From Novosphingobium sp. 9 (GTDB taxonomy: Bacteria; Pseudomonadota; Alphaproteobacteria; Sphingomonadales; Sphingomonadaceae): DNA of 64,000 nucleotides. The stretch's first letter is position 1. The number at the start of each line of letters is the position of its first letter. Positions 18,508-51,479 of this stretch are shown here, one piece after another. The position numbers and the translations under genes were made by a program. The stretch spans positions 1,144,501 to 1,208,500 of the forward strand of contig NZ_CP022708.1 in assembly GCF_025340265.1 (NCBI RefSeq), in the 5' to 3' direction. The notes under the pieces were generated by a model, which worked only from the letters and a program-made list of their open reading frames with translations, did no database searches and was not told the origin of the DNA.

Positions 18508-19740
18508 ATGCTCAACACCTTCCAACAGGCCGATCACAAGGCGCTCCCCAAGGCTTCGGCCGACGAGGCATCGCGTCAAGAGTTCACCAAAAGCTTCAAG
18601 GGCTTCATCCAGAGCACGCTGCTGCCCGGACTGACCCCGGTGTTCAACACCCGCGTGTCGCACAAGTTCGAGAAGGAACATGGCCGCGCGCCGGTCGATC
18701 GTCGCGACATCCGCAAGGGCATGGTCGATGACATCTACTTCCAGCACTATGCCGCCGCGAACCGCATCGCGCAGGAACTCCTGTGGGAATCTGTCGGCGG
18801 CTCGATCGATCGCCAGTTGCCCGAACTGAACGCCGCTGCCGCCGCGCTCAGCGCCTCGACCCTAGCCCAGCTCGTCATTCCCGACGACTTCGAGGCGCCC
18901 CGCTACGTCACCGCGCTCGACATCCACTGCATGCCGGGCGGCTATTGCTCGCAAGTGTGCGAGGACGACATATCGGTCGGCGCACTCTACGATCGCGGCG
19001 TGTTTCTCTATGCCATGGGCTACACCGGCCCGGACAACGACGACATGGGCCGGTCGGTCGTGAACTACCTCAGGCGCAACATGCCCGACTTCAAGCCGCG
19101 CCGCATCCTCGACATGGGCTGCACCGTGGGGCACTCGACCGTCCCGTACAAGGAACTGTTCCCCGAAGCCGAAGTGTGGGGCATTGATGTCGGCAAGCCG
19201 GTGATCCGCTATGCCCACGCCCGCGCCGCCGCCATGGGGCAGGAAATCAACTATGCAGTGATGAACGCTGAGGAGACCACCTTCCCCGACGGACACTTCG
19301 ATCTCGTCGTCAGCCACATCCTGCTGCATGAAACCAGCGGCAAGGCGATGCCGAAGATCTTCGCCGAGGCCCATCGCGTGCTCGCGCCGGGCGGCCTGAT
19401 GATCCACGCAGATCTTCCGCCCTTCGATCTGATGGACCCGTTCACCCAGTTCATTCTCGACAACGAGACCTGGTACAACAACGAGCCGTTCTGGGGTGCG
19501 ATGCGCGATCTCGATCAGATCGCCCTTGCCGAGAAGGCCGGTTTCGCGCGCGAGGACGTGCGGTTCGACAATGCGCCGATGGCCGTGATGGAATTCGCCG
19601 CTGCCGAAAGCGCAGGCTACAGCCAGGATGCCTCCGAAGCGGTGGCCGAGCGTGATTTCACCGCCGGTGAGTTCGCCCCCGGCGGCGGCTGGGAAGTGTT
19701 GATCGCCCGCAAGCCCGCCGCGCAGGCCAAGGCCGCCTGA
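18508..19740 (+). CDS. Two-domain class I SAM-dependent methyltransferase (module A copy)
   Basis: ATG 18508 follows AGGAG. The 410-residue protein has an unusual N-terminal half: a helical stretch, then DIHCMPGGYCSQ, the acidic CEDDIS and YDRGVFLYAMG. A normal class I methyltransferase domain follows from about residue 200: ILDMGCTVGHSTVP (SAM motif I), VWGIDVG (motif II), VMNAEETTFPDGHFDLV and HRVLAPGGLMIHAD. The paralogue at 50008 shares both halves, including the D-I-H-x-M-P-G-G signature. Both are paired with a small coiled-coil protein (here 50 bp downstream). I do not recognise the family's substrate. Context suggests methylation or a methylation-like step on a catabolic intermediate. 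Confidence 0.8.
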   Translation: MLNTFQQADHKALPKASADEASRQEFTKSFKGFIQSTLLPGLTPVFNTRVSHKFEKEHGRAPVDRRDIRKGMVDDIYFQHYAAANRIAQELLWESVGGSIDRQLPELNAAAAALSASTLAQLVIPDDFEAPRYVTALDIHCMPGGYCSQVCEDDISVGALYDRGVFLYAMGYTGPDNDDMGRSVVNYLRRNMPDFKPRRILDMGCTVGHSTVPYKELFPEAEVWGIDVGKPVIRYAHARAAAMGQEINYAVMNAEETTFPDGHFDLVVSHILLHETSGKAMPKIFAEAHRVLAPGGLMIHADLPPFDLMDPFTQFILDNETWYNNEPFWGAMRDLDQIALAEKAGFAREDVRFDNAPMAVMEFAAAESAGYSQDASEAVAERDFTAGEFAPGGGWEVLIARKPAAQAKAA

Positions 19741-19789
19741 TCCGCGCGTCTGTCAGCACCCGCAATTCAACGAACGGATACCCACTGTG

Positions 19790-20146
19790 ATGATCGAAGA
19801 CCGTCCGCACGTCATTCGCCATGCCCGAGGCAAGCGTCCCGAATTCTACGACACCCCCGGCCTCGATGAGGCGATGTCGATGATCCTGGTACTCGCCAAC
19901 GAGATTTCCGTGATGCGTGACCGTCTCGACTCGGCCGAGCGCGTCGCCAAGATCAACGGCCTCGATCTGGCCGCCGGGATCGAGACGCTCCAGCTCGATC
20001 AGGCCGCGCTGGAAGAACGCGAGGCGCGCCGTCAGGACTTCCTTCGCCGCCTGTACTACGTCCAGCTGAAGGACGCGGCCGAAGCCGCAGCCGCTGAAAC
20101 GCGCGAAGGCTACTCCGCCACGATCACCGAGATCGCCCAAGCTTGA
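19790..20146 (+). CDS. Small coiled-coil protein partnered with methyltransferase (module A copy)
   Basis: About 118 residues from ATG 19790 (a GTG codon directly precedes it). It is charged and helical: MSMILVLANEISVMRDRLDS, then an E/R-rich heptad-like stretch (ALEEREARRQDFLRRL). The protein encoded at 51162-51479 aligns with it through MIL-x-L-x-x-E-I-x-V-x-R-x-R-L-D-x-x-E-R and N-G, and that gene is likewise next to a methyltransferase of the same family. No signal peptide or membrane segment. It could be a structural or activating subunit of the methyltransferase. Not recognised as a named family. Confidence 0.7.
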   Translation: MIEDRPHVIRHARGKRPEFYDTPGLDEAMSMILVLANEISVMRDRLDSAERVAKINGLDLAAGIETLQLDQAALEEREARRQDFLRRLYYVQLKDAAEAAAAETREGYSATITEIAQA

Positions 20147-20175
20147 TCGGACGGACAGGCCAATACCCAATTCAA

Positions 20176-20210
20176 AAAGGCCCGGAACGGATACGCCGTT
20201 CCGGGCCTTT
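20176..20210. terminator. Bidirectional terminator
   Basis: AAAGGCCCGGAACGG (20176-20190) pairs perfectly with 20196-20210 over 15 bp around a five-base loop, with T-rich ends on both strands. It separates the convergent coiled-coil gene and MFS gene. Confidence 0.9.
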
Positions 20211-20237
20211 CTTTGTATCGATCAATCGGTCCAACTG

Positions 20238-21629
20238 TCAGTCTTGCGGCAATCGGTAGCGCGTGAAGACGATCAAGCTCACCGCCATCAGCCCTGCCGG
20301 AATCCAGCTGTACAGCATGACGATGCCCGTCACCGCGCGGACGCTTTGCGCCGCCGCACCGCCCGTGGAAGAGGCGAACCCGAAAGCGCTCATCACCAGT
20401 CCGGCAATGACCGGCCCGACCGCAAACGACAGTTTCTCGAAGGCAGAGAACAGGCCCGAGAATACACCTTCGTTGGCAATGCCATGGCGGCGGCGCTCCA
20501 GATCGATGGTGTCTGTCAACATCGAATAGCCGAGCATGATGAACGCCCCGTTGGTGAGCCCGATCAACATGCCCCGGACCATCACCAGCACGTCCTGCGT
20601 GCCCAGTCGCAAGCCGCCCGGCAGCGTCATCAGAACATCCGTGGAAGGATGAATAAACCACCAGGATGCAGTGACCACGCCCCATACCAGCGAGGCCAGC
20701 ACAAAAGCGCGCTCTTTGCCAAGGCGGCGCGAGATCGTCAGCCAGACCGGCTGGGTGACGATGCCGACACCCGTCATCGCGATGATGAACAAGGGAACCA
20801 GCCAGATCGCCTTGAGCGCATAGAGGAAGATGAAGCCGATCACGGTATAGCCGCAAGCCTGCGCCACGTTCTGGATCAGGCAAGTCGACAGCAACACCAG
20901 ATAGGGCCGGTTCCCGCCGATCGCGCCAAGTTGCCTGAGGAGCCCTGTCGGCTGCGCCTCGTCGCGGATCAGCGGCACCCGCATCATCCCGATGGCGGTC
21001 GCCAGCATCGTCACCAGACACAGCGCGCCCAGGATCAGCGACATGAGCAGCCAGCCGCGGGCTCCACCGCCAAAGGCATAGACCAGCGGCTGGGCACTGC
21101 CCACGCCGGCAAGCACACCGAAAGAGGCAAAGACCATCCGGAACACCATGATCCGCGTGCGCTGGTGCGGATCGCGCGACAGGCCCGAGGCGACAGCGAG
21201 ATAGGGAACGGAAAACGCCGAAAACGCGGTGGATCCCACGAAGAAGATGAAACAGGTCAACATCGCCGACAGCAGCGGGCTGCCGGTAGCCGTCAGATTG
21301 AACAGCGCCACGAAGGCAAGGCTGGTCAGAACCGCGCCCACGAGCAGGAACGGCGTGCGCCCATATCTGTCCTTGATGCGATCCGACCATGCACCGGTCA
21401 ACGGATCGCAGGCGATCAGCCAGAGCTTGGGGATCAGCACCACAAAACCGGACATCCATGCCGGAATACCCAGCATCGTGGTCATGAACAGCGGAAGGAG
21501 CACAGCCGGGGTATCGCGGAAGACCTGTGCGCCCAGTTGTCCCACGCCGTAGCGCAGCACGACCGAGGTCGGGACCGCAGCCTCCGCTACCGGAGGCGTA
21601 AAGGCAGGTCTTGCGGCAAGAGCAGTCAT
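20238..21629 (-). CDS. MFS transporter, GPH-like (glycoside-pentoside-hexuronide:cation symporter type)
   Basis: ATG 21629 has AGGAGA upstream, giving 463 residues with about 12 hydrophobic segments. VLRYGVGQLGAQVFRDTPAV near the start, LWLIACDPLTGAWSDRIKDR with the D-P-x-x-G-x-x-S-D signature, and YGRTPFLLVGAVLTS are typical of the MFS_2/GPH family. It imports a solute with cations across the inner membrane. Last gene of a minus-strand group with SDR (22517) and an unknown protein (21774). Substrate unknown. Confidence 0.85.
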   Translation of the reverse strand: MTALAARPAFTPPVAEAAVPTSVVLRYGVGQLGAQVFRDTPAVLLPLFMTTMLGIPAWMSGFVVLIPKLWLIACDPLTGAWSDRIKDRYGRTPFLLVGAVLTSLAFVALFNLTATGSPLLSAMLTCFIFFVGSTAFSAFSVPYLAVASGLSRDPHQRTRIMVFRMVFASFGVLAGVGSAQPLVYAFGGGARGWLLMSLILGALCLVTMLATAIGMMRVPLIRDEAQPTGLLRQLGAIGGNRPYLVLLSTCLIQNVAQACGYTVIGFIFLYALKAIWLVPLFIIAMTGVGIVTQPVWLTISRRLGKERAFVLASLVWGVVTASWWFIHPSTDVLMTLPGGLRLGTQDVLVMVRGMLIGLTNGAFIMLGYSMLTDTIDLERRRHGIANEGVFSGLFSAFEKLSFAVGPVIAGLVMSAFGFASSTGGAAAQSVRAVTGIVMLYSWIPAGLMAVSLIVFTRYRLPQD

Positions 21630-21773
21630 GCAAGGGTCTCCTGAAGGCGGCAGGCCAAAAATTAGACAGGAACGTCGAAGGGCTCGGCGATGTTGCCGTG
21701 GCACCCATCTCCAAGTCCATGGCCGACGAGTGTCGTCAAAAGATCGGGCGCCGAAGCGCACCTTTGGCAAATC

Positions 21774-22520
21774 TCACCGCAGATCGGATAAACGCTGCGC
21801 CGTTTCGAGCGTTTCCAGCACGAAGTCCCCCTCCACCAGTTCCCAGGCCATCCGCAGGAACAGGCAATCTCCGCGACGCACCCACAGGTCTGCCGCAGGC
21901 CAGTCCTGACGCCAGCGCAACCGAAAATGATCGGCCGCAAAGCGTCCCGCAGGCACCGAAATCTCGCTCTCGCCCACCCAGGCGACGGCGATATCGAGAA
22001 GATGAGCGCCCGGCGCTGCATCCCCGTTGGGCGATACCGAATTGGTTGCCGAGGCGATCAGGCGATAGACGCCCGGCTCATCGCGCCCTCGGGCCATGGC
22101 GATCAGCGCATCTCCCTGCAACGGATGCAGGCCGAGATAGGGCAGCCCGAAGGGAAGCGATGAAACCGCCTGCGCGCGGTCTTCTCCGGCGAGGCGGGTG
22201 TCGGCAAGCAGCCGTTCCCCGCTGACCCGGAACCAGAGCGCATCATCGCCCTGTGCCGGGCGCATGACGCGGCTCCAGCCATCGCGAGGACGCCAGTCCC
22301 GGTCGAGCGCCATCGACACGTCCCGAACCAGATCCCCCTCGCCTCTCTCGTCGGCCGCCATGATACAAAGCGCCCGCAGCAACCTTCCTCCCGGCACCAT
22401 CCACAGATCGAACCACTCGCGCCCGATCACGGCCTGTTCGCGGTTACGATAGGCGATCACACCCCGCTCGATCAAAGCGCCGGGGGCCGTGCGCATCGCG
22501 TGGTCTGGCAACGGGCTCAT
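21774..22520 (-). CDS. Uncharacterised 248-residue protein in SDR-MFS operon
   Basis: ATG 22520 overlaps the SDR stop (ATGA), so translation is coupled. The protein is rich in Trp, Arg and Asp, with no signal peptide or membrane helix: WFDLWMVPGGRLLRALCIMA, VSMALDRDWRPRDGWSRVM, FGLPYLGLHPLQGDALIAM and SATNSVSPNGDAAPGAHLLD. The strand-rich pattern suggests a barrel-like or lipocalin-like fold, but this is a guess. I do not recognise the family. Its position between an SDR and a transporter suggests a role in the same catabolic route. Confidence 0.7.
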   Translation of the reverse strand: MSPLPDHAMRTAPGALIERGVIAYRNREQAVIGREWFDLWMVPGGRLLRALCIMAADERGEGDLVRDVSMALDRDWRPRDGWSRVMRPAQGDDALWFRVSGERLLADTRLAGEDRAQAVSSLPFGLPYLGLHPLQGDALIAMARGRDEPGVYRLIASATNSVSPNGDAAPGAHLLDIAVAWVGESEISVPAGRFAADHFRLRWRQDWPAADLWVRRGDCLFLRMAWELVEGDFVLETLETAQRLSDLR

Positions 22521-23254
22521 GCTGCACGTTCCCGTGGGCGCGGCACAGCCTTGCCTGCCGTATAGCCACCGTCCACCGGCATGATCGCACCGGTCATGAA
22601 GGAAGCGGCATCCGACATCAGGAACGCGACAGCCTCCGCCACTTCGCGCGCCTGCCCGATCCGCCCGAGCGGATGCGCGTCGAGATCACCCTGCAAGTGG
22701 GCCTCATACCCTGCACTGGTCAGCGGATGGACCATCGGCGTCTCGATCAGCCCAGGGCAGACGCAATTGACCCGGATGCCGCTATTGCCAAGGTCAAGCG
22801 CCATACAACGCGTCAGGTGCGCCACTGCTGCCTTGCTGACAGCATAGGATGCACAGCCGTTCCGCGCGAGAAGCCCGAAGGTCGAACCGATATTCACGAT
22901 CGCGCCGCGCCCCGCCTGGCGCATCAGGGGAAGGACTGCCCGGCATCCCAGCACCGTGCCCCTCAGGTTGACCGCCATCACGGCATCGAAGCGGACCATG
23001 TCCTCCTCTTCGATCGTGGCGATGGAACCGATCCCAGCGCAATTTACCAATCCTTCCACACCGCCTTTCGATACGAGACCTTCCACGAGCCGCGCCCAGC
23101 CTCCCTCATCGCGGACATCGAGAAGAGCACCCTGATCGCACCCCATGGCAAGATCGGCGCGCAACACCTTGCGACCTGCCTCTTCCAGCCTGTCTGCAAC
23201 CGCGGCCCCGATCCCGGATGCCGCCCCCGTCACGATTGTCCACGCATCCATCAT
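22517..23254 (-). CDS. Short-chain dehydrogenase/reductase
   Basis: I choose ATG 23254 (MMDAWTIVTGAASGIG) because GGAAGG precedes it and the SDR glycine motif then starts at the usual distance; 245 residues. TGAASGIG binds NAD(P); NCAGIGS, catalytic serine in NIGSTFG, YAVSK with catalytic Tyr and Lys, and the PGLIETPM segment follow; MPVDGGYTAG near the end is normal. It probably oxidises a secondary alcohol or reduces a ketone. First gene of the minus-strand group, divergent from the alpha/beta hydrolase at 23423. Confidence 0.9.
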   Translation of the reverse strand: MMDAWTIVTGAASGIGAAVADRLEEAGRKVLRADLAMGCDQGALLDVRDEGGWARLVEGLVSKGGVEGLVNCAGIGSIATIEEEDMVRFDAVMAVNLRGTVLGCRAVLPLMRQAGRGAIVNIGSTFGLLARNGCASYAVSKAAVAHLTRCMALDLGNSGIRVNCVCPGLIETPMVHPLTSAGYEAHLQGDLDAHPLGRIGQAREVAEAVAFLMSDAASFMTGAIMPVDGGYTAGKAVPRPRERAA

Positions 23255-25646: not shown

Positions 25647-27215
25647 TCAGAACCCCAGAACGCCCGGCCCCAGTCGTCGGGCAGGGTCGAACGCGTCCTT
25701 CAGAGCATCGGCGATCTGCTGCTCTGTCCCGCCCAGACGCTCCCTGAAAGGATAGGCGCGGCCAAGCTGGAAATGGACAGCGCCATGGGCATCGTACAGC
25801 GCGATCAGGTCTGCCTTCATCCTGGCCACATACTCGCGCGCTTCGGGATTTGGCGCAAAACTGGGTAGTTGCGCCAGGTAATCTGCGGGCACCATTTCGC
25901 GGTGGTAGGCCGTGATCTCATCCGGCCAGTAGAGCGCGATCTCGTACAGAAAACCCGACGTGCCGATGGTCGAGTACATGCCTCCGCCCCACACGCCAAG
26001 GCGCTCCATGTCCGCTTTGCGCAGCGCATAGAAATTCTGCAGCGCGGCATCAAACCCGCGCACCGCATCGTGTGCCATCACCCCGTGCAACGGCACCCAG
26101 CGCTCGCCTCCGGGGCCCAGAACATTATAGAACGGCGCAAAGGGCATACCGCGCACGACAGCGGGAACGGTCGCCGCGATCTCGCGGCCAAGCTCGCGGT
26201 TGATCTCGCGCAGGCGATGCAGGCGCGCGCGCGCCTCGCCATCGTCGAACCCCTCGACGATGTAGTGCGTCATGTACCGCGAGGCCGCGATCTGGCGACG
26301 TGCCATGACGCCCGCCGCGGCGACCTGTTTCACGCCCGAAAGCACCGAAGGCGAAGAACGCACGATCGAGAGCGCCATCTTCAGGCTTCCCCCTGCCCGC
26401 TCCTGCCGCGCGATCTGGCCCTGGGACAGGGCGGCATCGAGAGCGAAGTGCGAATCCTCGATACGCTCCTGCGCGATCCGGCGCATGGATTCATGCATCT
26501 GCGCGAACTCGGCAAAGGCAAACGACACCACACGATGCGCCGGACGGCTGCGGATGATCGGCAGGGTGATCCTTGCCTTGATCCCCAGAGCGCCGCAATC
26601 GCCGGTAAACAGGCCGGTCAGGTCGGGGCCGAAATGCCGGGCGAAAGGCTTCAGGCCGGCAGCACCGGAACCGGTTCGAAGCAGCGAACCATCGGCCATC
26701 ACGACGTCGAAGCTTTGGGCGGATTCGGCGGAAATGCCCCATGCGCCCGAGCCATGGCTGACCGCGTTCTGCGACATCGAGCCGCCGACCGTCGCAACGA
26801 GACCCGAAAATGGCCCCCGGAAGGGTGTGCGCCAGCCACGCTCGGCCAGCACGTCGGACAGCTTCGCCCAGGTTACGCCTGCCTCGACCGTCACGAAGCC
26901 GTTGAATTCATCCAGCGTAACGATCCGATCCAGTCGGCTGAGATCGATCAGCACGAGATCGGGTGATGTCGCGTTGTAACCATCGGTGTACGATGCGCCG
27001 CCGCCGCGCACGGTCCACTTCACATCGGCATCCGATAAAGTGCGGACAACCCCCTGCAATGCCTCGACGCTGTTCGGGCGCGCAACGGCGACCGGCATCG
27101 CCTGGGCACGATAGACGTCGGTCGCAAGGAAGGCCACGCGAGCCGGGTCCGTCACCAGCCCCTCGGCATCCAGCTCGGCAGCGAGGCGCGCAAGGAAATC
27201 GGCCTGGACAGTCAT
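25647..27215 (-). CDS. VAO-family FAD-binding oxidoreductase (glycolate oxidase GlcD-like)
   Basis: A 522-residue protein with a PCMH-type FAD domain at the N-terminus: VARPNSVEALQGVVRTL, VRGGGASYTDGYN (FAD pyrophosphate loop), VEAGVTWAKLSDVL and GSMSQNAVSHGSGAWG. The C-terminal half is a substrate domain ending FDPARRLGPGVLGF, as usual in the family. No iron-sulfur motif. Such enzymes oxidise 2-hydroxy acids, phenolic or lactone substrates. It is convergent with the VOC gene and divergent from the LeuC-like gene. The shared intergenic region holds a 13-bp tandem repeat. Confidence 0.85.
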   Translation of the reverse strand: MTVQADFLARLAAELDAEGLVTDPARVAFLATDVYRAQAMPVAVARPNSVEALQGVVRTLSDADVKWTVRGGGASYTDGYNATSPDLVLIDLSRLDRIVTLDEFNGFVTVEAGVTWAKLSDVLAERGWRTPFRGPFSGLVATVGGSMSQNAVSHGSGAWGISAESAQSFDVVMADGSLLRTGSGAAGLKPFARHFGPDLTGLFTGDCGALGIKARITLPIIRSRPAHRVVSFAFAEFAQMHESMRRIAQERIEDSHFALDAALSQGQIARQERAGGSLKMALSIVRSSPSVLSGVKQVAAAGVMARRQIAASRYMTHYIVEGFDDGEARARLHRLREINRELGREIAATVPAVVRGMPFAPFYNVLGPGGERWVPLHGVMAHDAVRGFDAALQNFYALRKADMERLGVWGGGMYSTIGTSGFLYEIALYWPDEITAYHREMVPADYLAQLPSFAPNPEAREYVARMKADLIALYDAHGAVHFQLGRAYPFRERLGGTEQQIADALKDAFDPARRLGPGVLGF

Positions 27216-27484: not shown

Positions 27485-28879
27485 ATGAACAACACCGCCG
27501 ATGCGCCGCGCACACTGTACGACCGCCTCTGGGACGCGCATGTCGTCGCCAGTGCACCCGATGGACAGGACCTGCTCTATCTCGACAGGCACCTGTTGCA
27601 TGAGGTCTCTACCCCGCAATCCTTCGAGTTGCTGCGCGAAAACGGCCTGGCTGTCCGCCGCCCGGCCACGCAACTGGCGGTTCCCGACCACGCCGTCCCG
27701 ACGCGCGATCGCGAAGGCGGCGCGATCCGCGAGGAAATGGCGCGTCGTCAGGTGGCCCTGCTGGAACGCAACTGCCGCGAATTCGGCATCGAACTGATCG
27801 ATCTGAACGACCCTCGGCAGGGCATCGTCCATGTGATCTCGCCCGAACAGGCCTTCACGCTTCCCGGCATCACGCTCGTTTGCGGTGACAGCCATACGGC
27901 GACGCACGGCGCCTTCGGGGCGCTTGCCTTCGGGATCGGCGCCAGCGAATGCGGCACGGTCATGGCGACGCAGTGCCTCTGGCAAACGCGCGCGAAGACC
28001 CTGCGCGTCCGCATCGACGGCCAGCTTCCGCCGGGCGTTTCCGCCAAGGACATGGTACTTTCGCTGATCGGCCGGATCGGATCGGGCGGCGGGGTTGGCC
28101 ATGCAATCGAACTATGCGGAAGCGCCGTCACCTCTGCCTCGATGGAAGCGCGCATGACCTTGTGCAACATGGGGATCGAAGCGGGTGCGCGCGTCGCCCT
28201 CATCGCGCCCGACGATACCACCTTTGCCTGGATCGAAGGGCGCGAACGCGCGCCGACAGGCCCCTTGTGGGAGGCCGCCGTCGCATACTGGCGCACGCTG
28301 CGTTCTCACGATGACGCCGTGTTCTCGCAGGAGGTCGTCCTCGATGCGGCGAGCATGGCCCCGCAGGTCACATACGGTATCTCCCCCGATCAGGTCATCG
28401 CCGTCGATGCGCCGGTGCCCGATGGCCCGGCCCGTGCGCTCGCCTACATGGGGCTGGACGCGGGCAAGCCGGTCAAGGGCCTGCCGATCGACTTCGCGTT
28501 CATCGGATCGTGTACCAACGGCCGGATCGAAGACCTTCGCGCCGCTGCCGCCGTGATCCGGGGGCGCCATGTCGCCCCGAACGTGACGGCAATGGTGGTC
28601 CCCGGCTCCGGGCTGGTGAAACGACAGGCCGAAGCGGAAGGACTGGACAGCGTGTTCAGGGCAGCGGGGTTCGAGTGGCATGCCGCCGGATGCTCGCTGT
28701 GTGTCGCCATGAACGGTGACAGTGTGCCGACCGGCCAGCGCGCGATCTCGACATCCAACCGCAACTTCGAGGGTCGGCAGGGCCCCGGAGCCCGCACCCA
28801 TCTCGCCAGCCCGCAGATGGTGGCCGCCGCAGCGATCGCAGGCCGGATCGTCGATATTCGCGAGGAACTTGCAGCATGA
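27485..28879 (+). CDS. LeuC-like aconitase-family hydro-lyase, large subunit (module A)
   Basis: A 464-residue protein, the normal size of isopropylmalate dehydratase large subunits. It has [11 protein letters not shown] at the start, [20 protein letters not shown], and the iron-sulfur ligands Cys343 in FIGSCTNGR and Cys403/Cys406 in GCSLC. The 4Fe-4S enzyme moves or adds water on a 2-hydroxy dicarboxylate or maleate-type acid. No leuA or leuB is nearby and a second LeuCD pair exists in the window, so a catabolic role, such as hydrating citraconate or dimethylmaleate, is more likely than leucine synthesis. Overlaps the small-subunit gene. Confidence 0.88.
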
Positions 28880-29460
28880 CCCCTTTCACCACCGTTTCGG
28901 GCAGCGCCTTCGCCTTGCCCGAAGATGATATCGATACCGACGTGATCTATCCCGCACGCTTCCTGCTGCGCACCGAGAAGCTGGGCCTGGGCAACCTCGC
29001 CTTTGCCGACCGCGCAGACCTGCGCGCCCGCATTGATGCTCCGGACGAAAATCCCATTCTGGTGGCAGGTGCCAACTTCGGCTGCGGCTCAAGCCGCGAA
29101 CATGCCGTGTGGACTCTGGCGGACGCGGGCTTTCGGGCGATCTTCGCGCCGTCCTTCGGCGAAATCTTCCGCAGCAATTGCACCAATAACGGCGTATTGG
29201 CAGGTCTGGTCGGCGAGGCCGATCACCTCGCGCTGATGACAGCCGCGCAGGCGGGCACCGTGCTGGAGGTCGACCTTGCCAATACAACTGTCCATTTCGG
29301 CGGAACAGCGATCCGCTTCTCGATCAGCGACGTGGATCGCCGTATGCTGCTGGAAGGCTGGAATGCCACAACCCGCATTCTGGCGCTGCACCGCGAGGAC
29401 ATCACGGCCTTCGAAGGGCGCCAGCGTCACGCGGCGCCCTGGTTGTGGACGAAGGGGTGA
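28876..29460 (+). CDS. LeuD-like hydro-lyase, small subunit (module A)
   Basis: ATG 28876 overlaps the LeuC-like stop (ATGA). The 194-residue protein carries [14 protein letters not shown] and [15 protein letters not shown], the swivelling-domain signatures of the isopropylmalate dehydratase small subunit. It closes the active site over the iron-sulfur cluster of the large subunit. The partner lyase could be the PEP-mutase-family enzyme at 10916. Confidence 0.9.
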
Positions 29461-41913: not shown

Positions 41914-42522
41914 TCACAGGTAGATCCAGGGCCTGACAAGACCATCGCGAGACAGGAAGGCGTCTATCTCCGCCTGATGGCGCTGCGTCAGGGCAATCGC
42001 ATCCGCGCCCTCCAGCAGCATCATGCGCGCTTCGGCATCAAGGCGGAACGGGAATTGCAGGCTACCGCAGCGAACCTGTCCTGCCGCAATATCGACCGAG
42101 GTCGCCTTTCCGTCTCCGGCGCGACGGGCCAGTTCCTGAATGGCTTCCTTTGGCAGCACCACAGGCGCCAGCCCGTTACGAATACAGTTCGCCTCAAAGA
42201 TCGGGCTGAACGAACTGGCGATCACCACGCGAAACCCGTATTCGGCCAGTGCCCAGACGGCATGTTCGCGGCTGGACCCGCATCCGAAGTTGCTGCCTCC
42301 CAGCAGGATGGCGGCTCCGGCAAACGCGGGAAGGTTGAGCACGAAATCCGACCGCACTTCGCGCGAGCCCACTTCACGATAACGCCAGCCTGCGAACAGC
42401 CCTTCGGCCAGACCGTCCTTGGTGACGGTCTTCATCTCGCGCGAGGGGATAATGATGTCCGTGTCGATGTTGTCATGCACCAACGGCACGGCAATGCTTT
42501 CGACGAGAATGACAGGGGTCAT
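41914..42522 (-). CDS. LeuD-like hydro-lyase, small subunit (module B)
   Basis: ATG 42522 overlaps the large-subunit stop (ATGA), giving 202 residues. VHDNIDTDIIIPSREMK and [19 protein letters not shown] are the small-subunit signatures. It is the last gene of the operon CoA-transferase, LeuC-like, LeuD-like. It differs markedly from the module A copy, so the two pairs probably act on different substrates. Confidence 0.9.
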   Translation of the reverse strand: MTPVILVESIAVPLVHDNIDTDIIIPSREMKTVTKDGLAEGLFAGWRYREVGSREVRSDFVLNLPAFAGAAILLGGSNFGCGSSREHAVWALAEYGFRVVIASSFSPIFEANCIRNGLAPVVLPKEAIQELARRAGDGKATSVDIAAGQVRCGSLQFPFRLDAEARMMLLEGADAIALTQRHQAEIDAFLSRDGLVRPWIYL

Positions 42523-43936
42523 ACCGGCGCCTTTCCAAGGTTTGCGATCTTCTGATCGGGCACGCCCGGAAGCGGCGGTGCGACGATCGCCCCTGCCAGC
42601 GCCGACGCCGCCACCGTCTCGGGCGATGCAAGGTGCGTCCGGGTGCGCGGTCCCTGACGGCTCTCGAAATTGCGATTGGTCGAACTGATGACCCGCTGAT
42701 CGGCTCCGAAACTCTCGCCGCCGGCAAAGAAGCACATCGAACACCCCGATTCGCGCCATTCAAACCCGGCGGCCGTGAATATCCGATCGAGACCTTCGGC
42801 TTCGGCCTGTGCCTTCACGCTGCTGGACCCCGGCACGCAGATCGCCCGCACACCCGGTGCGACCTTGTGTCCTTCAATAACGGCTGCGGCACGGCGCAGA
42901 TCCGATATCCGGCTGTTCGTACAGGACCCGATGAACGCACCTTCGATAGCAAGCCCCTCCAGCGCGGTGCCCGGTTGCAGGTCCATGTAGTCCAGCGCAC
43001 GCGCGCTATCGGCAACTTCGGGAACCGGCATGCCAAGCGGCACGGCCTGTTGCGGACTGGTGCCCCATGTCACCATGGGGCGCATCCTTGCCGCATCGAA
43101 GACATGTTCGGACGCAAACCCGGCGCCCACGTCGCTGAACAACGCCCGCCACTGCGATAATGCCGTGGGCCAGGTATCGCCGCCCGGCGCGAAAGGCCTG
43201 CCCTTCAACCAGGCAAAAGTCTTCTCGTCGGGCGCGATGACCGCTCCGAATGCGGCAAGTTCGGTCGCCATGTTGCACAGCGTCATGCGCGCTTCCATAT
43301 CGAACGCGTAAACGGTGCTGCCTGCAAACTCGACAATATGGCCCTTCGCCCCGTTGGATCCGAGCGCGGCAATGATATGAAGCGCTACATCCTTGGCCGT
43401 GACACCTGCCGCCAGTTCACCCTCAATGCGAATACGCATGTCCTTGGGGCGCGAAAGCCGCAGCGTCATCGTCGCCAGAACATGCTCTGCTTCGGTCGAA
43501 CCGATCCCCAAGCCAGCGCACCGAACGCGCCCTGCGTGCAGGTGTGACTGTCCGGGCAAACCAGCGTGGCACCGGGCAGAACGATACCCTGCTCCGGCGA
43601 GATCACATGAACGATCCCCTGCCGCGGGTCGCTGACATCGAACAGGGTTATACCATGGCGATGCGCGCTTTCGCGAGTGGCAAGAATGAAATCGGTGCCG
43701 GTGGGCATCGTCGTGCGATCGGTACGGCCCGGCAAGGTATCGACGATATGGTCCATCGTGGCGAAAACCTGCCGGGGACGGCTGACGTGACGCCCGGCCG
43801 CCTCCAGCGACTTGAGCGCTACGCCGCCCGTCCGCTCATGCAACAGCAGGCGGTCGATCGCGACAATTTCAGCACCACTCTCAAGCGTCAGGACACGATG
43901 CGCAGACCAGATCTTCTCCGCCAGCGTCCGGCTCAT
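42519..43936 (-). CDS. LeuC-like aconitase-family hydro-lyase, large subunit (module B; frame disrupted)
   Basis: ATG 43936 overlaps the CoA-transferase stop. The first frame gives [20 protein letters not shown] and [16 protein letters not shown]. The rest, [20 protein letters not shown] onward, is in another frame; one extra base in the run at 43506-43511 joins them. Iron-sulfur ligands are visible in FIGSCTNSR and [11 protein letters not shown]. Restored length is about 472 residues. With a class III CoA-transferase in front and an HMG-CoA-lyase-like gene nearby, hydration of citraconate or another alkyl-maleate to a citramalate-type acid is a good hypothesis. Confidence 0.82.
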
Positions 43937-45146: not shown

Positions 45147-45188
45147 GTCCTTCTAGTCGTAACCCTTGCCGCACCGTGAAATCGATCC

Positions 45189-45218: not shown

Positions 45219-45336
45219 ACAATCGCAAGGCATGCAGGCGGCCTGTTCGCTCTGCGGGCACAGGAGACCTTTCGGCTCCCCCTGATGCACAAACGCGAGG
45301 CATCATGGTTGCAGGTTGCATCAAGGAGAAGGCACG

Positions 45337-46023
45337 GTGAGCGATATCGTCGGAACCCGCATGGTCTGTGAGGACAAGACCGCGCGGCAGCTATTCGAGC
45401 AGGTCATGGCGAACCCCGCCCGCGCCAAGTTCGGCTTTGGCGAACGCCTTGCCATCGTCAACATCGACTTCCAGAATGCGTATACCCGCATCGACGAGTT
45501 CAAGACCGCCTACGAGACCGACCCGCGCCAGATCGAACACGTCAACACGATCTCCCGCCTCGCCCGCGCGAAGGGCATGCCGGTGGTCTGGACGCGCGTC
45601 GCCTATGCCGAAGATGCCAGCGATGCGGGAGTCTGGGGCACGCGCACCAATACCCCCGACAGCCTCCAGAACATCAAGTACGGCAGCCGCCGACATGCCT
45701 TCGACGAGCGTTGCGAAATCGACGAGGCGAAGGACACGATCTACACCAAGCGCATGCCCTCGCCGTTCTTCGAGACGCCGTTGCAGAGCTTGCTGGTGTG
45801 GCACAAGGTGGACACCGTCGTCATCACCGGCGGCTCGACCTCGGGCTGCGTGCGCGCCGCTGCGGTCGATTCCCTTTCTCGCGGATATCGCACGATCGTG
45901 CCGATCGAGACCTGTGCCGACAAGCACGAGTCCTATCACTTCGCCAATCTTACCGACCTTCAACTCAAGTACGCCGATGTCGAACCGGTGCAGACCGTGA
46001 TCGACTGGCTGGAGGCCCGCTGA
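45337..46023 (+). CDS. Isochorismatase-family amidohydrolase (module B)
   Basis: GTG 45337 follows AAGGAGAAGG, giving 228 residues. Catalytic residues are visible: Asp in LAIVNIDFQNAY, Lys in IYTKRMPSPFFET and Cys in ITGGSTSGCVRAAAVD. The family hydrolyses amides and carbamoyl groups (maleamate, nicotinamide, N-carbamoylsarcosine, ureidoacrylate). The stop overlaps the start of a PuuE-like gene by one base, and a second PuuE-like gene follows. The order amidase-PuuE-PuuE suggests stepwise ring opening and deamidation of a cyclic amide. It parallels the intact-frame counterpart at 17704. Confidence 0.88.
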   Translation: MSDIVGTRMVCEDKTARQLFEQVMANPARAKFGFGERLAIVNIDFQNAYTRIDEFKTAYETDPRQIEHVNTISRLARAKGMPVVWTRVAYAEDASDAGVWGTRTNTPDSLQNIKYGSRRHAFDERCEIDEAKDTIYTKRMPSPFFETPLQSLLVWHKVDTVVITGGSTSGCVRAAAVDSLSRGYRTIVPIETCADKHESYHFANLTDLQLKYADVEPVQTVIDWLEAR

Positions 46024-46934
46024 TGCGCGAAGGCGAAAAGGACCCCGGCCTCTACGACTATCGTGCCTGGCCCGAACGTGCCCCGCTGCAATGGCCGGAA
46101 GGCAAGACCTGCGCGGTCTGGGTCTCTCCCAATCTCGAGTTCTACGAACTCGACCCACCGGCCAATCCTCACCGCAAATCCTGGGCGAAGCCTCATCCCG
46201 ACGTGGTAGGCTATTCGCACCGCGACCACGCCAACCGCGTGGGCCACTGGCGCATGGCCGATGTGATGAGCAAGCACGGCTTTCCCGGTTCGGTCAGTCT
46301 GTCGGTGGCGCTGTGCCAGCACATGCCCGAAGTCGTCGCCGATGCGAACGCGCGGGGCTGGGAGTTCTTCAGCCACGGCATCTACAACACCCGCTATTCC
46401 TACGGCATGGACGAGGCGCAGGAGCGCGCCATCATCGAGGATTCTATCCATACCGTGCGCGAGGCGACCGGGCAGACCATCAAGGGCTGGCTAGCCCCTG
46501 CCCTTACCCACACGCCGCGCACGCTGGACCTGATCGCCGAATATGGCCTGAACTATACCTGCGATCTCTACCACGACGACCAGCCCGGCGAAGTTCATGT
46601 GCAATCGGGCCGTCTGATCTCGATGCCCTACAGCCTTGAGGTCAACGATCATTACGGGTTCTTCGTCTACAACATGAGCCCGCGCGAATACGCAGACGTC
46701 TTGATCCGCCAGTTCGAGCGGCTTGCTGCAGAGGGCGAGAACGGCGGTACGGTGATGTGCATTCCGCTGCATTCCTACCTGATCGGCCAGCCGCATCGCA
46801 TCGGTGCCTTCGAGGAAGTGCTGCGCCACATTGCAGCAGACGGCCGCGCCTGGATTACCCGTTCGGGCGACATCGCGGACCATTACATGGCGCAGACCGG
46901 CGCCCCCACATCTTGCGAGGAGATCGTGCGATGA
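46023..46934 (+). CDS. PuuE-like cyclic amide/imide hydrolase, copy 2
   Basis: ATG 46023 gives 303 residues. TFDDG of deacetylases is replaced by VSPNLEFYEL; the second motif is WEFFSHGIYNTRYSYG; the C-terminal motif is IPLHSYLIGQPHRIGAFEE with both histidines. GWLAPALTHTPRTLDLIAEYG is typical of PuuE-type allantoinases. Cytoplasmic, no signal peptide. It lies between the amidase (1-bp overlap) and copy 3 (4-bp overlap). Likely an amidohydrolase for a cyclic amide such as an imide, hydantoin or allantoin-like ring. Confidence 0.82.
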   Translation: MREGEKDPGLYDYRAWPERAPLQWPEGKTCAVWVSPNLEFYELDPPANPHRKSWAKPHPDVVGYSHRDHANRVGHWRMADVMSKHGFPGSVSLSVALCQHMPEVVADANARGWEFFSHGIYNTRYSYGMDEAQERAIIEDSIHTVREATGQTIKGWLAPALTHTPRTLDLIAEYGLNYTCDLYHDDQPGEVHVQSGRLISMPYSLEVNDHYGFFVYNMSPREYADVLIRQFERLAAEGENGGTVMCIPLHSYLIGQPHRIGAFEEVLRHIAADGRAWITRSGDIADHYMAQTGAPTSCEEIVR

Positions 46935-47854
46935 GCCTCGACCCCGCCTATCTCGAATATTCGCACCGCCGACAGGGCTACGATCACGACTTTTATGACT
47001 GGTCGGCCCTGCGCGAACGCCCGGCCTTTGCCTGGCCCGGCGGCAAGCCGCTGGCGGTGTGGCTGGCCGTCAGCCTCGAATGGTTTCCCATCGTGCCCGA
47101 GGACAAGCCCTTCCGCGCGCCGGGGCATATGCAAACCGCCTATCCCGATTACCGGCACTATACCTCGCGGGAATATGGATCGCGCGTGGGCGTCTTCCGG
47201 ATGCTCGACGCCTTTGCCAAAGTCGGCGCCAGGGCCTCGTTTCTGCTCAACGCCGCGATCGCCGAGCGCTATCCCGAACTGGTTGCAAGCGTCATCGCGG
47301 CAGGTCACGAGATCGTTGCCCATTCCACCGACATGAACGGTACGATCGCCTCGACCCTGCCCGAAGAGCAGGAACGCGCGCTGATCCGCGAAACGCTCGA
47401 CCGGATCGAGGATGCCTGCGGCGTGCGTCCGCGCGGCTGGGCCTCCATCGCTCGCTCGCAAAGCTTCGCGACACCACGGCTGCTCGCCGAAGCGGGCGTG
47501 GAATACCAGTGCGACTGGGTGAACGACGAACTGCCCTATGCCATGCAGACTTCTGCCGGCCAGATCGTCAATATTCCGCTCAACCATGAATTGTCCGACC
47601 GTCAGATCGTGACGGTACAACAGCACTCGGCAGAAAGTTATGCCGAGCAGATCGGCGACGCCGCGCAATGGCTTGCGGACGAAGCCGCTCGCGAGAACGG
47701 CGCGCGGATGCTGCCGCTGCAACTGACACCGTACATCATGGGGCTACCTTATCGCATCGGGGCACTGGAAGACCTGCTCGCCAAACTGGCAGCACGGGAA
47801 GACGTCTGGTTCGCGACCGGCGCGAACCTGCTCGATGGCTGGCGCAATCGCTGA
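46931..47854 (+). CDS. PuuE-like protein, copy 3, with altered C-terminal histidines
   Basis: ATG 46931 overlaps the previous stop (ATGA). The 307-residue protein has WLAVSLEWFPI at motif 1 and HEIVAHSTDMNGT at motif 2, but the C-terminal motif reads LQLTPYIMGLPYRIGALED, with Thr and Tyr where copies 1 and 2 have His. Loss of two residues likely to be catalytic suggests altered chemistry, or a non-catalytic partner for copy 2, with which its translation is coupled. Followed by a hairpin terminator. Confidence 0.8.
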   Translation: MSLDPAYLEYSHRRQGYDHDFYDWSALRERPAFAWPGGKPLAVWLAVSLEWFPIVPEDKPFRAPGHMQTAYPDYRHYTSREYGSRVGVFRMLDAFAKVGARASFLLNAAIAERYPELVASVIAAGHEIVAHSTDMNGTIASTLPEEQERALIRETLDRIEDACGVRPRGWASIARSQSFATPRLLAEAGVEYQCDWVNDELPYAMQTSAGQIVNIPLNHELSDRQIVTVQQHSAESYAEQIGDAAQWLADEAARENGARMLPLQLTPYIMGLPYRIGALEDLLAKLAAREDVWFATGANLLDGWRNR

Positions 47855-47868
47855 GCAGGATGCAGACA

Positions 47869-47905
47869 GCCAAGGGGGCAGGCGATATCCGCCTGCCCCC
47901 TTGGC
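47869..47905. terminator. Hairpin terminator after the amidase-PuuE operon
   Basis: GCCAAGGGGGCAGGCG (47869-47884) pairs perfectly with 47890-47905 over 16 bp. No long T run follows, but the position between convergent units fits a terminator. Confidence 0.75.
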
Positions 47906-47925
47906 ATTCATACAAATTTGCTATC

Positions 47926-47945
47926 AGTTCAGTTCAGTTCAGTTC
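47926..47945. repeat. Tandem pentamer AGTTC x4
   Basis: AGTTC is repeated four times without change and overlaps the stop codon of the IclR-type gene on the minus strand. It looks like a simple slipped-strand repeat. Confidence 0.9.
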
Positions 47946-48738
47946 AGCGCAGCGTTATCCCCTGCGGCGATTTCCAGATCGCGCGAGATGGCAGCGGCCG
48001 TCGCCTTGAGGTCTTCGAGGTGACGGGCCACCGCTTCGGGCTGCTTCATGGCCGAAGAGAAATAGATCATGGTGAGCGCCGCGACGAACCGGCCGCGACA
48101 CATGATCGGCACGGCCAGCGAAGACGTCTTGCCCGGCGTCAGATTGTGTTGCCCCACGAGATGGCATCGTACCCGTCTTCCCGGATACGCTCACGGTTGC
48201 TGAGGGCGATCTCGGTGGGCAGGCCACGCTGTCCGCTGTCGTCCGCGACATTGAGCCACTCGACGACCTGCTCCAGCTCCATCGCATCCATGTTGGCAAG
48301 GCAGACGCGTCCGGCGGCGCTGTCGACCAGCGGCAGTCTGAAGCCGGGATAATAGACCTCGAAGGTCAGCGATGTCTCGGAATGCGTCGAATCGCGCACC
48401 ACCATATGCGTGCCGATCCGCACCGTCAGCGAGACCGGCCAGCCGATTCGCTGGGTCAGATCACGGATATGCTCGCGCCCATGTTCCACGACCATGCTGT
48501 CCGAGCGGAACCCTTGCGAGAGCGACTGGACCAGCGCGGTCGGGCGATAGTACTTGCGCGCGGGCTCCTGCTCGACCAGCCCTTCGTGGATGAGGGTCTG
48601 CACGATACGGCAGGTCGTGGGATAAGGCAGACCGCCGCGACGGGCGATCTGCATCATCGACAGCGATCCCATCTGGTTGATTTCCTGAAGGATCGAAATG
48701 GCCCGGCTGACAGACCGGATCGGAATACCCTTTTCCAT
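47939..48738 (-). CDS. IclR-family regulator, paralogue of the 13049 gene (frame disrupted at a C4 run)
   Basis: ATG 48738 begins MEKGIPIRSVSRAISILQEI. The winged helix (SLSMMQIARRGGLPYPTTCR, IVQTLIHEGLVEQEPARK) and most of the effector domain read cleanly to DAISWG. One extra base in the run at 48152-48155 joins QHNLTPGKTSSLAVPIMCRG and the C-terminus, ending at 47939. The same HNLTPGKTSS segment is intact in the 13049 paralogue, which confirms the correct frame. Restored length is about 266 residues. It may regulate module B. Confidence 0.85.
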
Positions 48739-48838
48739 GGTGCGCGACCTCCCTGTAGATGCAGTCCTGAACGTGCTTTTTGCGAACCCCCGTTCGCCCC
48801 ATCCGGACCGCGATCACCTGCGGCCCGCAACTCTTGAT

Positions 48839-49794
48839 TCAGGCCGCCTTCAGCGTCTTCGAGAAGCCCAGCGGCAGGCCTGCGTCCGTGACGAAGCCGT
48901 AGAGCGGTTCGCCCGGCAATGCCTCGGCAACGATCGCGCGAACCGCGAACAGCCGGTCGAGATCGATACCGGTGGCGATCCCCATCGCCTCCAGCATGAA
49001 GGCCAGGTCTTCCGTCACGATATTGCCGCTGGCGCCGGGCGCGAAGGGACAGCCGCCCAGGCCGCCCAGCGAGGCATCGATGGTGTCCAGCCCGGACTCC
49101 AGCGCCGCCAGTACGTTGGCAAGGCCCAGTCCACGCGTGTTGTGGAGGTGGATACCGGTCAGCGCCGCCTCGCCCACCGCACCGCGCACCAGCGCGACAA
49201 GACGACGAACGGCGACGGATCGGCATAACCGGTAGTGTCCGACAGCCCCACCTCGTTGCAGCCCGCAGCCATCAGCCGTTCGGCAAGGCGCGCGATCTGC
49301 GCATCGGGAATGGCCCCCTCCAGCGTGCAACCGAACGCTGTGGAAAGACTGCCCTCGAAGTGCGGCCGCCCGTCTGCCGGCAGCGCAAGGATCATTTCGG
49401 CAATGCGGCTCGCCTCCTCGATCACCTGATCGTGGGTCCGGCGCAGGTTGCGCAGCGAATGCGTTTCCGAGACCGAAAGCGGCAGGGTGATCTTGTGGGC
49501 ACCGGCAGCAATGGCATCCGCCGCGCCGCGAGCGTTCGGCACCAGAACCGCCACGGTCAGATCGGGTATCGTGCGGGCATAAGCAACAATTTCGGCGGTA
49601 TCGGCAAGTTGCGGCAGCAGTTTTGCCGGTACAAAGCTGCCGACCTCGATTTCGCGGACTCCCGCAGCGGCCTCCGCTGCGATCCATGCCTTCTTCGCTT
49701 CGGTCGGCATCGTGCGCGACACGTTCTGCAAGCCGTCACGAGGTCCAACTTCGCTGATCAAAACCGACACGCCAGAGCCCTTCACTTCATTCAT
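48839..49794 (-). CDS. HMG-CoA lyase-like enzyme (citramalyl-CoA lyase type possible; frame disrupted)
   Basis: ATG 49794 leads into VLISEVGPRDGLQNVSRTMP, then EVGSFVPAKLLPQLADT and EVGLSDTTGYADPS. The C-terminal part (GIHLHNTRGLGLANVLAALE, LGGLGGCPFAPGASGNIVTE) is in another frame. One extra base near 49211-49215 joins them into about 318 residues. Catalytic Arg, Asp, two His and the Cys of the G-G-C-P-F loop are all present. HMG-CoA lyases split 3-hydroxyacyl-CoAs; a relative in Chloroflexus splits (R)-citramalyl-CoA to pyruvate and acetyl-CoA. Near the CoA-transferase/LeuCD operon, that reaction fits better than leucine breakdown. Confidence 0.83.
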
Positions 49795-49901
49795 TTGTCA
49801 TATTGATACACCAAATAAAAAGGCTGTCCATAGGCCTCGGACACGCATGATTGTTTCACGGAGAAGGGCAGGAACGTAACAGCGCACCCCGCAGAAATGC
49901 G

Positions 49902-49937
49902 CGATGCGCGCCGCTCCCCCAGGACCGGCGCGCATCG
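49902..49937. terminator. Hairpin between convergent-side units, possible terminator
   Basis: CGATGCGCGCCG pairs with CGGCGCGCATCG over 12 bp, followed on the plus strand by ATTTT. It lies 70 bp past the methyltransferase stop on the minus strand. The T tract is short, so this is tentative. Confidence 0.45.
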
Positions 49938-50007
49938 ATTTTCCAGTACGGAAAGATAGCTCGGGGCTGTTCCCCGAACGAATCAGCAATAACCCGAAAG
50001 GCGAATC

Positions 50008-51165
50008 TCAGGCGACGCCGGATGCCACGAACCACGATCGGAACACGCCCTCGCTTTTCGCGCCGAACCGGAAAGGGCCGCTGCGTGCATCCAGACTGGT
50101 CGCCTGATACCCGGCCTCGATATCGTGGAAGCCTGCCGCAGCGAACAGCGCCGGATAATCCGCCGTCAGCGCACCGCGCCAGTTGGGTTCATTGTTGTAC
50201 TGGGCTTCCAGTTCGCCGGACAGTTCCACCCACGGATCGGAGTTATCGTGCAGCAGCGGCACTTCGAGATGGACCGCCAGACCGCCCGGCGTCAGCAGAC
50301 GACGGCTCTCGGCGAGGATGGCCTGCACCGCCTCTGGCGAGGATTCGTGGAACAGGATGCAGCTGTAGACCACATCGAAGCTGGCGTCGGCGAAGTCCGT
50401 CCGTTCCGCGTTCTGCTGGGAGAAATGGATGGCGGCTCCAAGATGTTCGGCGCGGGCATGGGCGTAGCGCAGGATCGAGGCACCGACGTCGATCGCATGG
50501 ATTTCCGCCTTCGGGAAAGCCCGCGCGGCAGGCACCGTGCTGGTCCCGATCCCGCATCCCATGTCGAGTACACGCTCGGGCGCAATCTGCGGGCATCGCG
50601 TCAGGACGTGGGCAATGGCAGTCTGCCCCCTCAGGTCGTTGAGCATGCCCCCGTTGCGCCCCAGCATGTAGACCGCGCCGCCGCGGTCCATCACAGCCCC
50701 CTGCAACAGCGAGCCATCATCGAGCTGATTGCCGCCGGGCATCAGATGGATGTCACCCTGCGTCACATAGTCCGGCGCCACGAACGCGGCATCGACGCGA
50801 ACGGAGCCTTTCGGCTCGACAATTTTCGCCAGCGCTTCGAGTTCTTCTGCCTGTCGCTCGACGCTTCCGGCAACCGCGCTCCACAACTGTCGCTGGGATT
50901 CGCGCTTCAGCGCCATCCAGCTGCGGAAGCTTTCGCGGCTCTCCATGCGCTCTCGCAGGTCCGCCACGCGATTGTTGGTGGCCGTGCCTGCAAGGCCCGC
51001 CTGCTCCACTTGCGCAAGTCCCGCCTGCACCGGCTCCAGCTGCTGCATCACATAGAGCTTGAGATCGCGCACGAACAATTGCTCAACCAGTTCGTCGTGG
51101 CTGGGCAGCGCGATCATCGGGTGATCGAGCGCCTTGCGGCTTTCGGAAATCCCTTCCATCGTCAC
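50008..51165 (-). CDS. Two-domain class I SAM-dependent methyltransferase (module B copy)
   Basis: ATG 51165 overlaps the stop of the coiled-coil gene (ATGA). The 385-residue protein has a helical N-terminal half, the signature GDIHLMPGGNQLDDGSLLQG and AVMDRGGAVYMLGRNGG, then a class I domain: VLDMGCGIGTSTVP (motif I), IHAIDVGASILRYAHARAEH, FADASFDVVYSCILFHESS and SRRLLTPGGLAVHLE. The N-terminal signature, the R-Y-A-H-A-R-A segment and the Y-N-N-E-P segment are shared with the copy at 18508. Substrate unknown. Conservation of both the paired gene and the extra domain points to an uncharacterised enzyme system. Confidence 0.82.
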   Translation of the reverse strand: MTMEGISESRKALDHPMIALPSHDELVEQLFVRDLKLYVMQQLEPVQAGLAQVEQAGLAGTATNNRVADLRERMESRESFRSWMALKRESQRQLWSAVAGSVERQAEELEALAKIVEPKGSVRVDAAFVAPDYVTQGDIHLMPGGNQLDDGSLLQGAVMDRGGAVYMLGRNGGMLNDLRGQTAIAHVLTRCPQIAPERVLDMGCGIGTSTVPAARAFPKAEIHAIDVGASILRYAHARAEHLGAAIHFSQQNAERTDFADASFDVVYSCILFHESSPEAVQAILAESRRLLTPGGLAVHLEVPLLHDNSDPWVELSGELEAQYNNEPNWRGALTADYPALFAAAGFHDIEAGYQATSLDARSGPFRFGAKSEGVFRSWFVASGVA

Positions 51166-51479
51166 TGTCCTTCCTGCTGCTGTGCCTTGACCAGTTCCGC
51201 CTGCGCCGCCTCGCGCATGGGGCGCAGCACCTTGTCGAGGATACGGCCACGCTGCTCGTCTCGCTCGGCCTGCGCCGCCGGGTCCGGATCGAAGGCATCC
51301 ACCGAACCGGGCGCGAGCGTGCCGTTCGCCACCAACAGTCGCTCGCAGGCATCCAGCCGGGCACGCAGCACGGTGATTTCCGAGGTCAGGGCCAGGATCA
51401 TGGCCAGATGCTGTTCATCCAGCGCGCGGCTGCCGACAATATCATCGAGTCGATGGGGTGTGCGGGGAAGTCTGCTCAT
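51162..51479 (-). CDS. Small coiled-coil protein partnered with methyltransferase (module B copy)
   Basis: A 105-residue helical protein: LDEQHLAMILALTSEITVLR, ARLDACERLLVANG, then AAQAERDEQRGRILDKVLRP. It matches the protein at 19790 through the same M-I-L-x-L-x-x-E-I-x-V and R-L-D-x-x-E-R-x-x-x-x-N-G pattern. Here it precedes the methyltransferase and overlaps it by 4 bp, while in module A it follows, so the pairing survives rearrangement. That supports a physical or functional partnership. No known family recognised. Confidence 0.75.
   Translation of the reverse strand: MSRLPRTPHRLDDIVGSRALDEQHLAMILALTSEITVLRARLDACERLLVANGTLAPGSVDAFDPDPAAQAERDEQRGRILDKVLRPMREAAQAELVKAQQQEGQ

Follow-up and report, generated by a model that had tools for sequence, protein, structure and literature searches.

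A methyltransferase paired with a small helical protein in Novosphingobium sp. 9: a putative two-subunit enzyme in a catabolic setting

Trm112-dependent methyltransferases are class I S-adenosylmethionine (SAM) enzymes with a small obligate partner of about 120 aa; Trm112 is a zinc-binding protein, and its methyltransferases act on RNA and protein. To our knowledge, small-molecule methyltransferases that require a dedicated second protein are rare, and it is unusual to find a methyltransferase in a bacterial breakdown pathway. Here we report on two loci of Novosphingobium sp. 9, modules A and B, each of which pairs a methyltransferase (MT-A, MT-B; the family is MT below) with a small helical protein (small-A, small-B), in a window of 64,000 nt (assembly GCF_025340265.1, contig NZ_CP022708.1, positions 1,144,501 to 1,208,500). 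Besides Trm112, the described systems closest to these modules are the corrinoid protein-associated methyltransferase CpaM (NF043040), the phosphoethanolamine N-methyltransferases (PDB 5wp5) with other small-molecule methyltransferases and, for their surroundings, the nicotinate and nicotine maleamate pathways and the Hxn pathway of Aspergillus. The small protein is shown here to be an obligate genetic partner of this methyltransferase in the genomes sampled. On balance we favour reading each pair as an obligate two-subunit, SAM-dependent small-molecule methyltransferase that would act on an intermediate of N-heterocycle catabolism.

Two modules and the pairing of their proteins

Module A lies on the forward strand, with MT-A (18508..19740, +; 410 aa) followed by small-A (19787..20146, +; 119 aa, or 118 from the ATG at 19790), a helical partner of no known family, and module B lies on the reverse strand, where small-B (51162..51479, -; 105 aa, also helical) precedes MT-B (50008..51165, -; 385 aa). 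All four open reading frames (ORFs) are open at these coordinates; an earlier note on this DNA had described the two loci (18508-20146 and 50008-51479) as each pairing a methyltransferase with a small protein. Homology bears this out for both proteins, with 38% identity between MT-A and MT-B over 344 aa (E 4e-70) and 33% between small-A and small-B (E 3e-11). The motif D-I-H-x-M-P-G-G that the note had seen in both methyltransferases is present in MT-A and MT-B, and the gene order is indeed reversed between the modules with the pairing kept. Small-B fails a simple codon-position GC screen that MT-A, small-A and MT-B pass, and an antisense ORF over module B (455 aa, 50125-51492, +) also passes it; it is because of homology that we regard small-B as a real gene. 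No frame changes were found in modules A and B when homologues from other genomes were aligned.

The stop codon of small-B and the listed GTG start of MT-B share 4 nt (GTGA); an alternative in-frame ATG lies 6 nt beyond the GTG, and the coupled translation that the earlier note had stated for module B is plausible, not proven. The description of the module as duplicated likewise holds in part. The two modules are homologous, but they belong to different subfamilies, each with closer relatives elsewhere, and are therefore old paralogues; a recent duplication within this genome was considered and rejected on the same grounds. Close copies of the module in the genome (4.39 Mb in two contigs, the window being part of the 1.39 Mb contig C2) are A and B only, two further matches being generic (E 1e-7 and 1e-5).

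Across 296 genomes of the order, a two-row MT profile (E≤1e-25) found the methyltransferase in 42 genomes at 105 places, and an 82-row profile of the small protein, run separately (E≤1e-5), found it in the identical 42 genomes at 107 places. Copy numbers of the two are equal in 39 of the 42 and differ in three. A sample of 398 genomes from the phylum gave five with the MT (E≤1e-30) and four with the small protein (E≤1e-5; the window's own genome included), all four with the MT. At E≤1e-3 a fifth genome joins the small-protein list through a match of 36 residues (E 1e-3) that is probably due to chance. A small protein occurring mostly without the methyltransferase, the outcome that the earlier note had named as telling against an obligate complex, was thus sought and not found.

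The two genes are also neighbours. The earlier proposal to score how often the small protein adjoins the methyltransferase is answered by the fetched loci, in which 180 of 184 MT ORFs have an adjacent small ORF on the same strand (164 downstream, 16 upstream); three of the four remaining cases are loci that hold one orphan MT together with one orphan small protein. The 80 named loci, the best of 382 relatives, are weighted towards MT-A, and for the order genomes 60 regions with 78 MT ORFs were fetched, against 103 MT places outside the window's genome. Some loci come from the same genome twice, 171 unique pairs being left after removal of identical ones, and loci L095-L099 stand outside the pair counts. 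In 83 of the 171 unique pairs the stop and start codons could overlap by 4 nt. An MT-small gene fusion, which would argue for contact, occurs in none of the 183 small and 184 MT ORFs.

Distances among the MT and among the small proteins of the 171 unique pairs correlate with r 0.94, the maximum over 500 shuffles being 0.13. Trees of 86 representatives have 42 of 83 bipartitions in common, against 0.15 expected (100 shuffles). When paralogues within a locus were swapped, the true partner fitted better than the swapped one in 36 of 36 comparisons, a result less open to the objection of shared relatedness because the pairs compared come from the same genome. The small-upstream order requires three changes on the MT tree and two on the small-protein tree; the reversed order of module B is therefore inherited, and the pairing survived rearrangement. 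Some points weigh against so strict an association: the fourth unpaired MT ORF, in L111, is a distant MT with no partner and accounts for the phylum-sample genome that has the MT and lacks the small protein; L116 carries an extra small-protein fragment (25 bits) without an adjoining MT; and relatedness is not preserved in the shuffles used for the distance correlation.

Features and distribution of the two families

Judged by its profile matches, the C-terminal half of the MT is an ordinary class I SAM domain. Methyltransf_25 aligns with residues 200-296 of MT-A (E 1.7e-20) and 199-295 of MT-B (E 5.2e-22), scoring 73.9 and 78.8 bits where the Pfam gathering cutoff is 27. Nine positions are invariant in 77 members of the family (H140, G204, D265, H274, E275, E287, R290, E326 and G345), of which H140 falls within the DIHxMPGG motif; P143 and G144 reach 90% conservation or more. 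The glycine motif and acidic residue of a SAM site are represented by the invariant G204 and by G208 and D227 (at least 90% in the 77 sequences), which we take to belong to that site. In many small-molecule methyltransferases, His and Glu residues around the region of H274-E275 are catalytic. The N-terminal ~190 residues are specific to the family, as the earlier note's description of a non-standard N-terminal half had it: no solved structure matched them (best PDB E 1.7), and Pfam searches with 20 members gave four weak hits, in one member each (best E 0.012).

Only E39 is invariant in 82 small proteins, M1, G15, P18, R46 and E51 being at least 90% conserved, and two conserved amphipathic stretches cover about residues 25-58 and 77-96. 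Neither small-A nor small-B matched any Pfam family at E≤1, the sole NCBIfam match was of PspB to small-B (E 0.016; 15.5 bits, cutoff 51.7), and no solved structure matched (best PDB E 0.66). Weak Pfam hits over the 82 proteins are scattered across 27 families, the best being Peptidase_S41_N (E 3.3e-5, 2 members), with PspB reached by 6 members (best E 0.002). Neither the N-terminal domain nor the small protein thus has a consistent relative in the Pfam and PDB libraries.

Among the best 80 of 382 relatives, those of MT-A (66-87% identity) come from Novosphingobium, Sphingomonas, Blastomonas, Caulobacter, Niveispirillum, Nitrospirillum and Azospirillum, and also from Alteromonas, Roseateles, Pseudorhodoferax and metagenome-assembled genomes of Cellvibrionaceae and Woeseiaceae, a distribution that fits transfer between classes. 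At 50%, average-linkage clustering divided the 171 unique pairs into 18 subfamilies, and A- and B-type modules stand together in one locus in L035 and L173. On plasmid p1 of Novosphingobium sp. ES2-1 (L098) the match to the small protein spans 95% of its length and that to MT-A residues 333-399 only, next to a TonB receptor gene; this module is apparently truncated. On plasmid pJE1 (L095), a HapK/REDY-like protein (14517-14837) adjoins the MT-small pair, with hydantoinase-type genes near.

The catabolic neighbourhood

Recurrent neighbours were surveyed by tblastn (E≤1e-25) at 150 MT loci and at 20 control loci, the latter arbitrary positions in 12 MT-bearing genomes. The query proteins originate in the window or in MT loci, and some hits at MT loci are therefore expected; the controls are nearly devoid of these families (0 or 1 of 20 each), which shows that they are not common background. 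A FAD_binding_4 oxidoreductase is the most frequent (88 of 150 MT loci), followed by a PuuE-like hydrolase (67), an aldehyde dehydrogenase (55; 1 of 20 controls), DUF1838 (49), a TonB receptor (45; 1 of 20 controls), two FAD_binding_3 hydroxylases (45 and 40), an isochorismatase (35), LeuC (34), a maleate-isomerase-like protein (34), a PrpB-like lyase (27), LeuD (22), HyuB (19), HyuA (18) and a carbon-nitrogen hydrolase (13), all others being at 0 of 20 controls. Flavin oxidases are linked in 102 of the 150 loci, and any of four tested C-N hydrolases in 90. Loci with the DUF1838 protein (for example L123 8763-9848) number 42 of 85 in subfamily A and 7 of 9 in subfamily E. In six Caulobacter loci (L152-L155, L157 and L184) one FAD_binding_4 oxidase gene is flanked by two MT genes that face each other, a compact arrangement convenient for genetic work; a seventh region (L156) ends before any second MT could appear.

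The isochorismatase is nearest to 4l07, which we take to be the maleamate amidase of Pseudomonas putida S16, and to N-carbamoylsarcosine amidohydrolase. For some of the flavin enzymes the closest matches are 8gsm and a decarboxylative vanillate hydroxylase, 6-hydroxynicotinate 3-monooxygenase ranking lower, and for others PnpA and HspB. According to PMC9304392, HxnM, a relative of PuuE, is a cyclic imidase that opens the ring in nicotinate catabolism of Aspergillus, after which an amidase acts. Taken together, the neighbours suggest a route in which an N-containing ring is hydroxylated, a cyclic imide is opened, deamidation follows and a dicarboxylic acid is hydrated or cleaved, and N-heterocycle catabolism is a rather likely setting for the module. 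The earlier statement that the surroundings are catabolic is supported in outline, many neighbours being catabolic and each found at no more than one control locus. As substrates, a tetrapyrrole, a bilin and nicotine each match some of the neighbours, and none could be chosen.

At the level of whole genomes, tallied from the genome search lists, the FAD_binding_4 protein is present in 39 of the 42 MT genomes of the order. The 11 order genomes with an MT score above 580 bits, which make up the MT-A group, all carry a PuuE-like gene (E≤1e-60). Several results speak against so general a setting. The PuuE-like gene is present in only 14 of the 42 MT genomes and also in 3 of 254 genomes without MT, and the FAD_binding_4 protein in 13 of those 254. 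No C-N hydrolase of the four tested was found in 60 of the 150 MT loci, some of them short, nor in any of the 9 subfamily E or 7 subfamily F loci, and N-heterocycle catabolism may for this reason not hold for the whole family. In the window itself, moreover, some flanking catabolic genes look broken, through assembly errors or decay: changes of frame, each backed by 3 to 21 homologue queries, fall at 12576, 43508, 44859, 48181, 49174 and 54573 and affect genes that include LeuC-like, CoA-transferase, IclR-type regulator and HMGL-like ones; two backed by a single query only (15397 and 23737) were set aside.

Close to module A lie genes for an aldehyde dehydrogenase (13907..15547, -), a FAD_binding_3 hydroxylase whose ORF is overlong at its N-terminus (15406..16953, -; PDB 8gsm, 8x38 and 8uiq) and the PuuE-like protein (16575..17732, -; PDB 3s6o and 3cl6), a putative cyclic-imide or ureide hydrolase of the polysaccharide deacetylase fold. 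With 143.6 bits against a TIGR03212 cutoff of 424.6, the last is homologous to PuuE and by this criterion not its orthologue. An isochorismatase-family ORF (17668..18093, +) appears truncated, aligning with profile positions 2-84 of 175 at 22.1 bits (Pfam cutoff 27). Further on are the FAD_binding_4 oxidoreductase (25647..27215, -), a GlcD/VAO-like protein and frequent companion of the MT family, the LeuC-like (27485..28879, +) and LeuD-like (28876..29460, +) large and small hydratase subunits, the latter in the same cluster as 41914-42759 (Aconitase_C), and the isochorismatase-family amidohydrolase with the nearest structures given above (45316..46023, +).

Towards the start of the window are an Asp/Glu-racemase-type protein near maleate isomerase and arylmalonate decarboxylase (6884..7627, -), a FAD_binding_3 monooxygenase near PnpA and HspB (7707..8915, -) and a PrpB-like lyase of the PEP mutase/isocitrate lyase family, below cutoff (10829..11788, +). 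A RutA-like pyrimidine monooxygenase (5776-6858, -; 598.5 bits, above the curated cutoff of 498.3) adjoins the maleate-isomerase-like and HspB-like genes; as a part of the module it was rejected, since it fell into no recurrent neighbour cluster.

Interpretation and comparison with known systems

Each module would thus make one two-subunit enzyme. The large protein is very likely an active methyltransferase, with SAM bound, to go by the family match, in its C-terminal Rossmann half and methyl transfer probably catalysed by the invariant H274-E275 pair together with H140 and E326. The small protein is probably a physical subunit, which would bind to the MT, perhaps at the latter's unusual N-terminal domain, and probably complete or stabilise the active site. 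In a pathway of the type that the recurrent neighbours point to, a nitrogen-containing ring would be hydroxylated and opened as a cyclic imide or amide, ammonia would be released, and a dicarboxylic acid would pass to central metabolism. The paralogous pairs A and B, which stand in one locus in two further genomes, may each have their own intermediate of one route to methylate. Demethylation, the other reaction that the earlier note had entertained, is unlikely for a class I SAM fold.

A separate functional partner, such as a substrate chaperone, a scaffold to the flavin oxidase or a regulator, forming no stable complex with the MT, predicts the same linkage data, and both the three loci in which MT and small protein stand apart within the cluster and the FAD_binding_4 oxidase as frequent third companion (88/150) agree with it. 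We consider this unlikely, as the near 1:1 copy number across about 18 subfamilies and the better fit of the cognate partner in every swap favour a dedicated, specific partner. Rather improbable, too, is an off-pathway role in damage control, in which the MT would detoxify a dead-end by-product by methylation as trans-aconitate methyltransferase does: aconitase-family hydratases recur beside the MT (LeuC at 34/150 loci) and MT-A has a weak, generic similarity to the trans-aconitate methyltransferase model, but at 29.9 bits this match is far below the cutoff of 320 and ranks under other generic methyltransferases, and the conserved linkage to flavin oxidases suggests a role in the pathway.

The N-terminal half without known relatives and the obligate partner would also suit a methyltransferase fold that runs a non-methylating reaction (SAM-assisted decarboxylation, hydroxylation or a pericyclic reaction) in the same catabolism; given that the SAM-binding motifs and the His-Glu pair are retained, we see a slim chance of this. 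HapK/REDY-like and DUF1330 neighbours in some loci could hint at a natural product cluster with the MT as tailoring enzyme, which we hold to be very improbable: TonB receptors, MFS transporters, aldehyde dehydrogenases, amidases, LeuCD and IclR-type regulators match breakdown, and no peptide, polyketide or terpene synthase was found among the annotated clusters (not all clusters being annotated).

Returning to the two-subunit methyltransferase of N-heterocycle catabolism, a broader proposal can be put forward tentatively, at somewhat less than even chances. The modules could belong to a hitherto undescribed family of small-molecule methyltransferases that are obligate heteromers, in which a new type of N-terminal domain is combined with a new helical subunit acting as activator. 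This family, diversified into about 18 subfamilies, would have spread between classes of Proteobacteria and would carry out the methylation in an unknown aerobic route for a widespread N-ring compound, such as a pyrrole or pyridine of plants or cyanobacteria. Retention of the partner across about 18 subfamilies makes this a clear and testable case, and in diverse Proteobacteria the clusters may point to a route, not yet characterised, for a nitrogen-ring compound of some kind.

A description of the MT-small pair was not found in the open-licence literature searched. CpaM is the top NCBIfam match of MT-B, at 64.8 bits; however, this score and the 50.6 bits of MT-A are below the cutoff of 180, the SAM core alone aligns, and no corrinoid protein turned up among the annotated neighbour clusters. 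Phosphoethanolamine N-methyltransferases (5wp5) and other small-molecule methyltransferases give the best SAM-core profile matches (E 2.9e-25), whereas the alignment is confined to the C-terminal part of the profile (197-366 of 394 being the best stretch) and the N-terminal region of the MT is left unmatched. The maleamate pathways of nicotinate and nicotine and the Hxn pathway have similar flavin hydroxylases, a cyclic imidase, a maleamate-type amidase and an isomerase, but the excerpted text of PMC9304392 names no methyltransferase pair in the Hxn pathway. The Trm112 family is not among the 25 listed of the 27 Pfam families with weak hits to the 82 small proteins. In contrast to Trm112, the small partner in the window is encoded together with its methyltransferase and diversifies alongside it.

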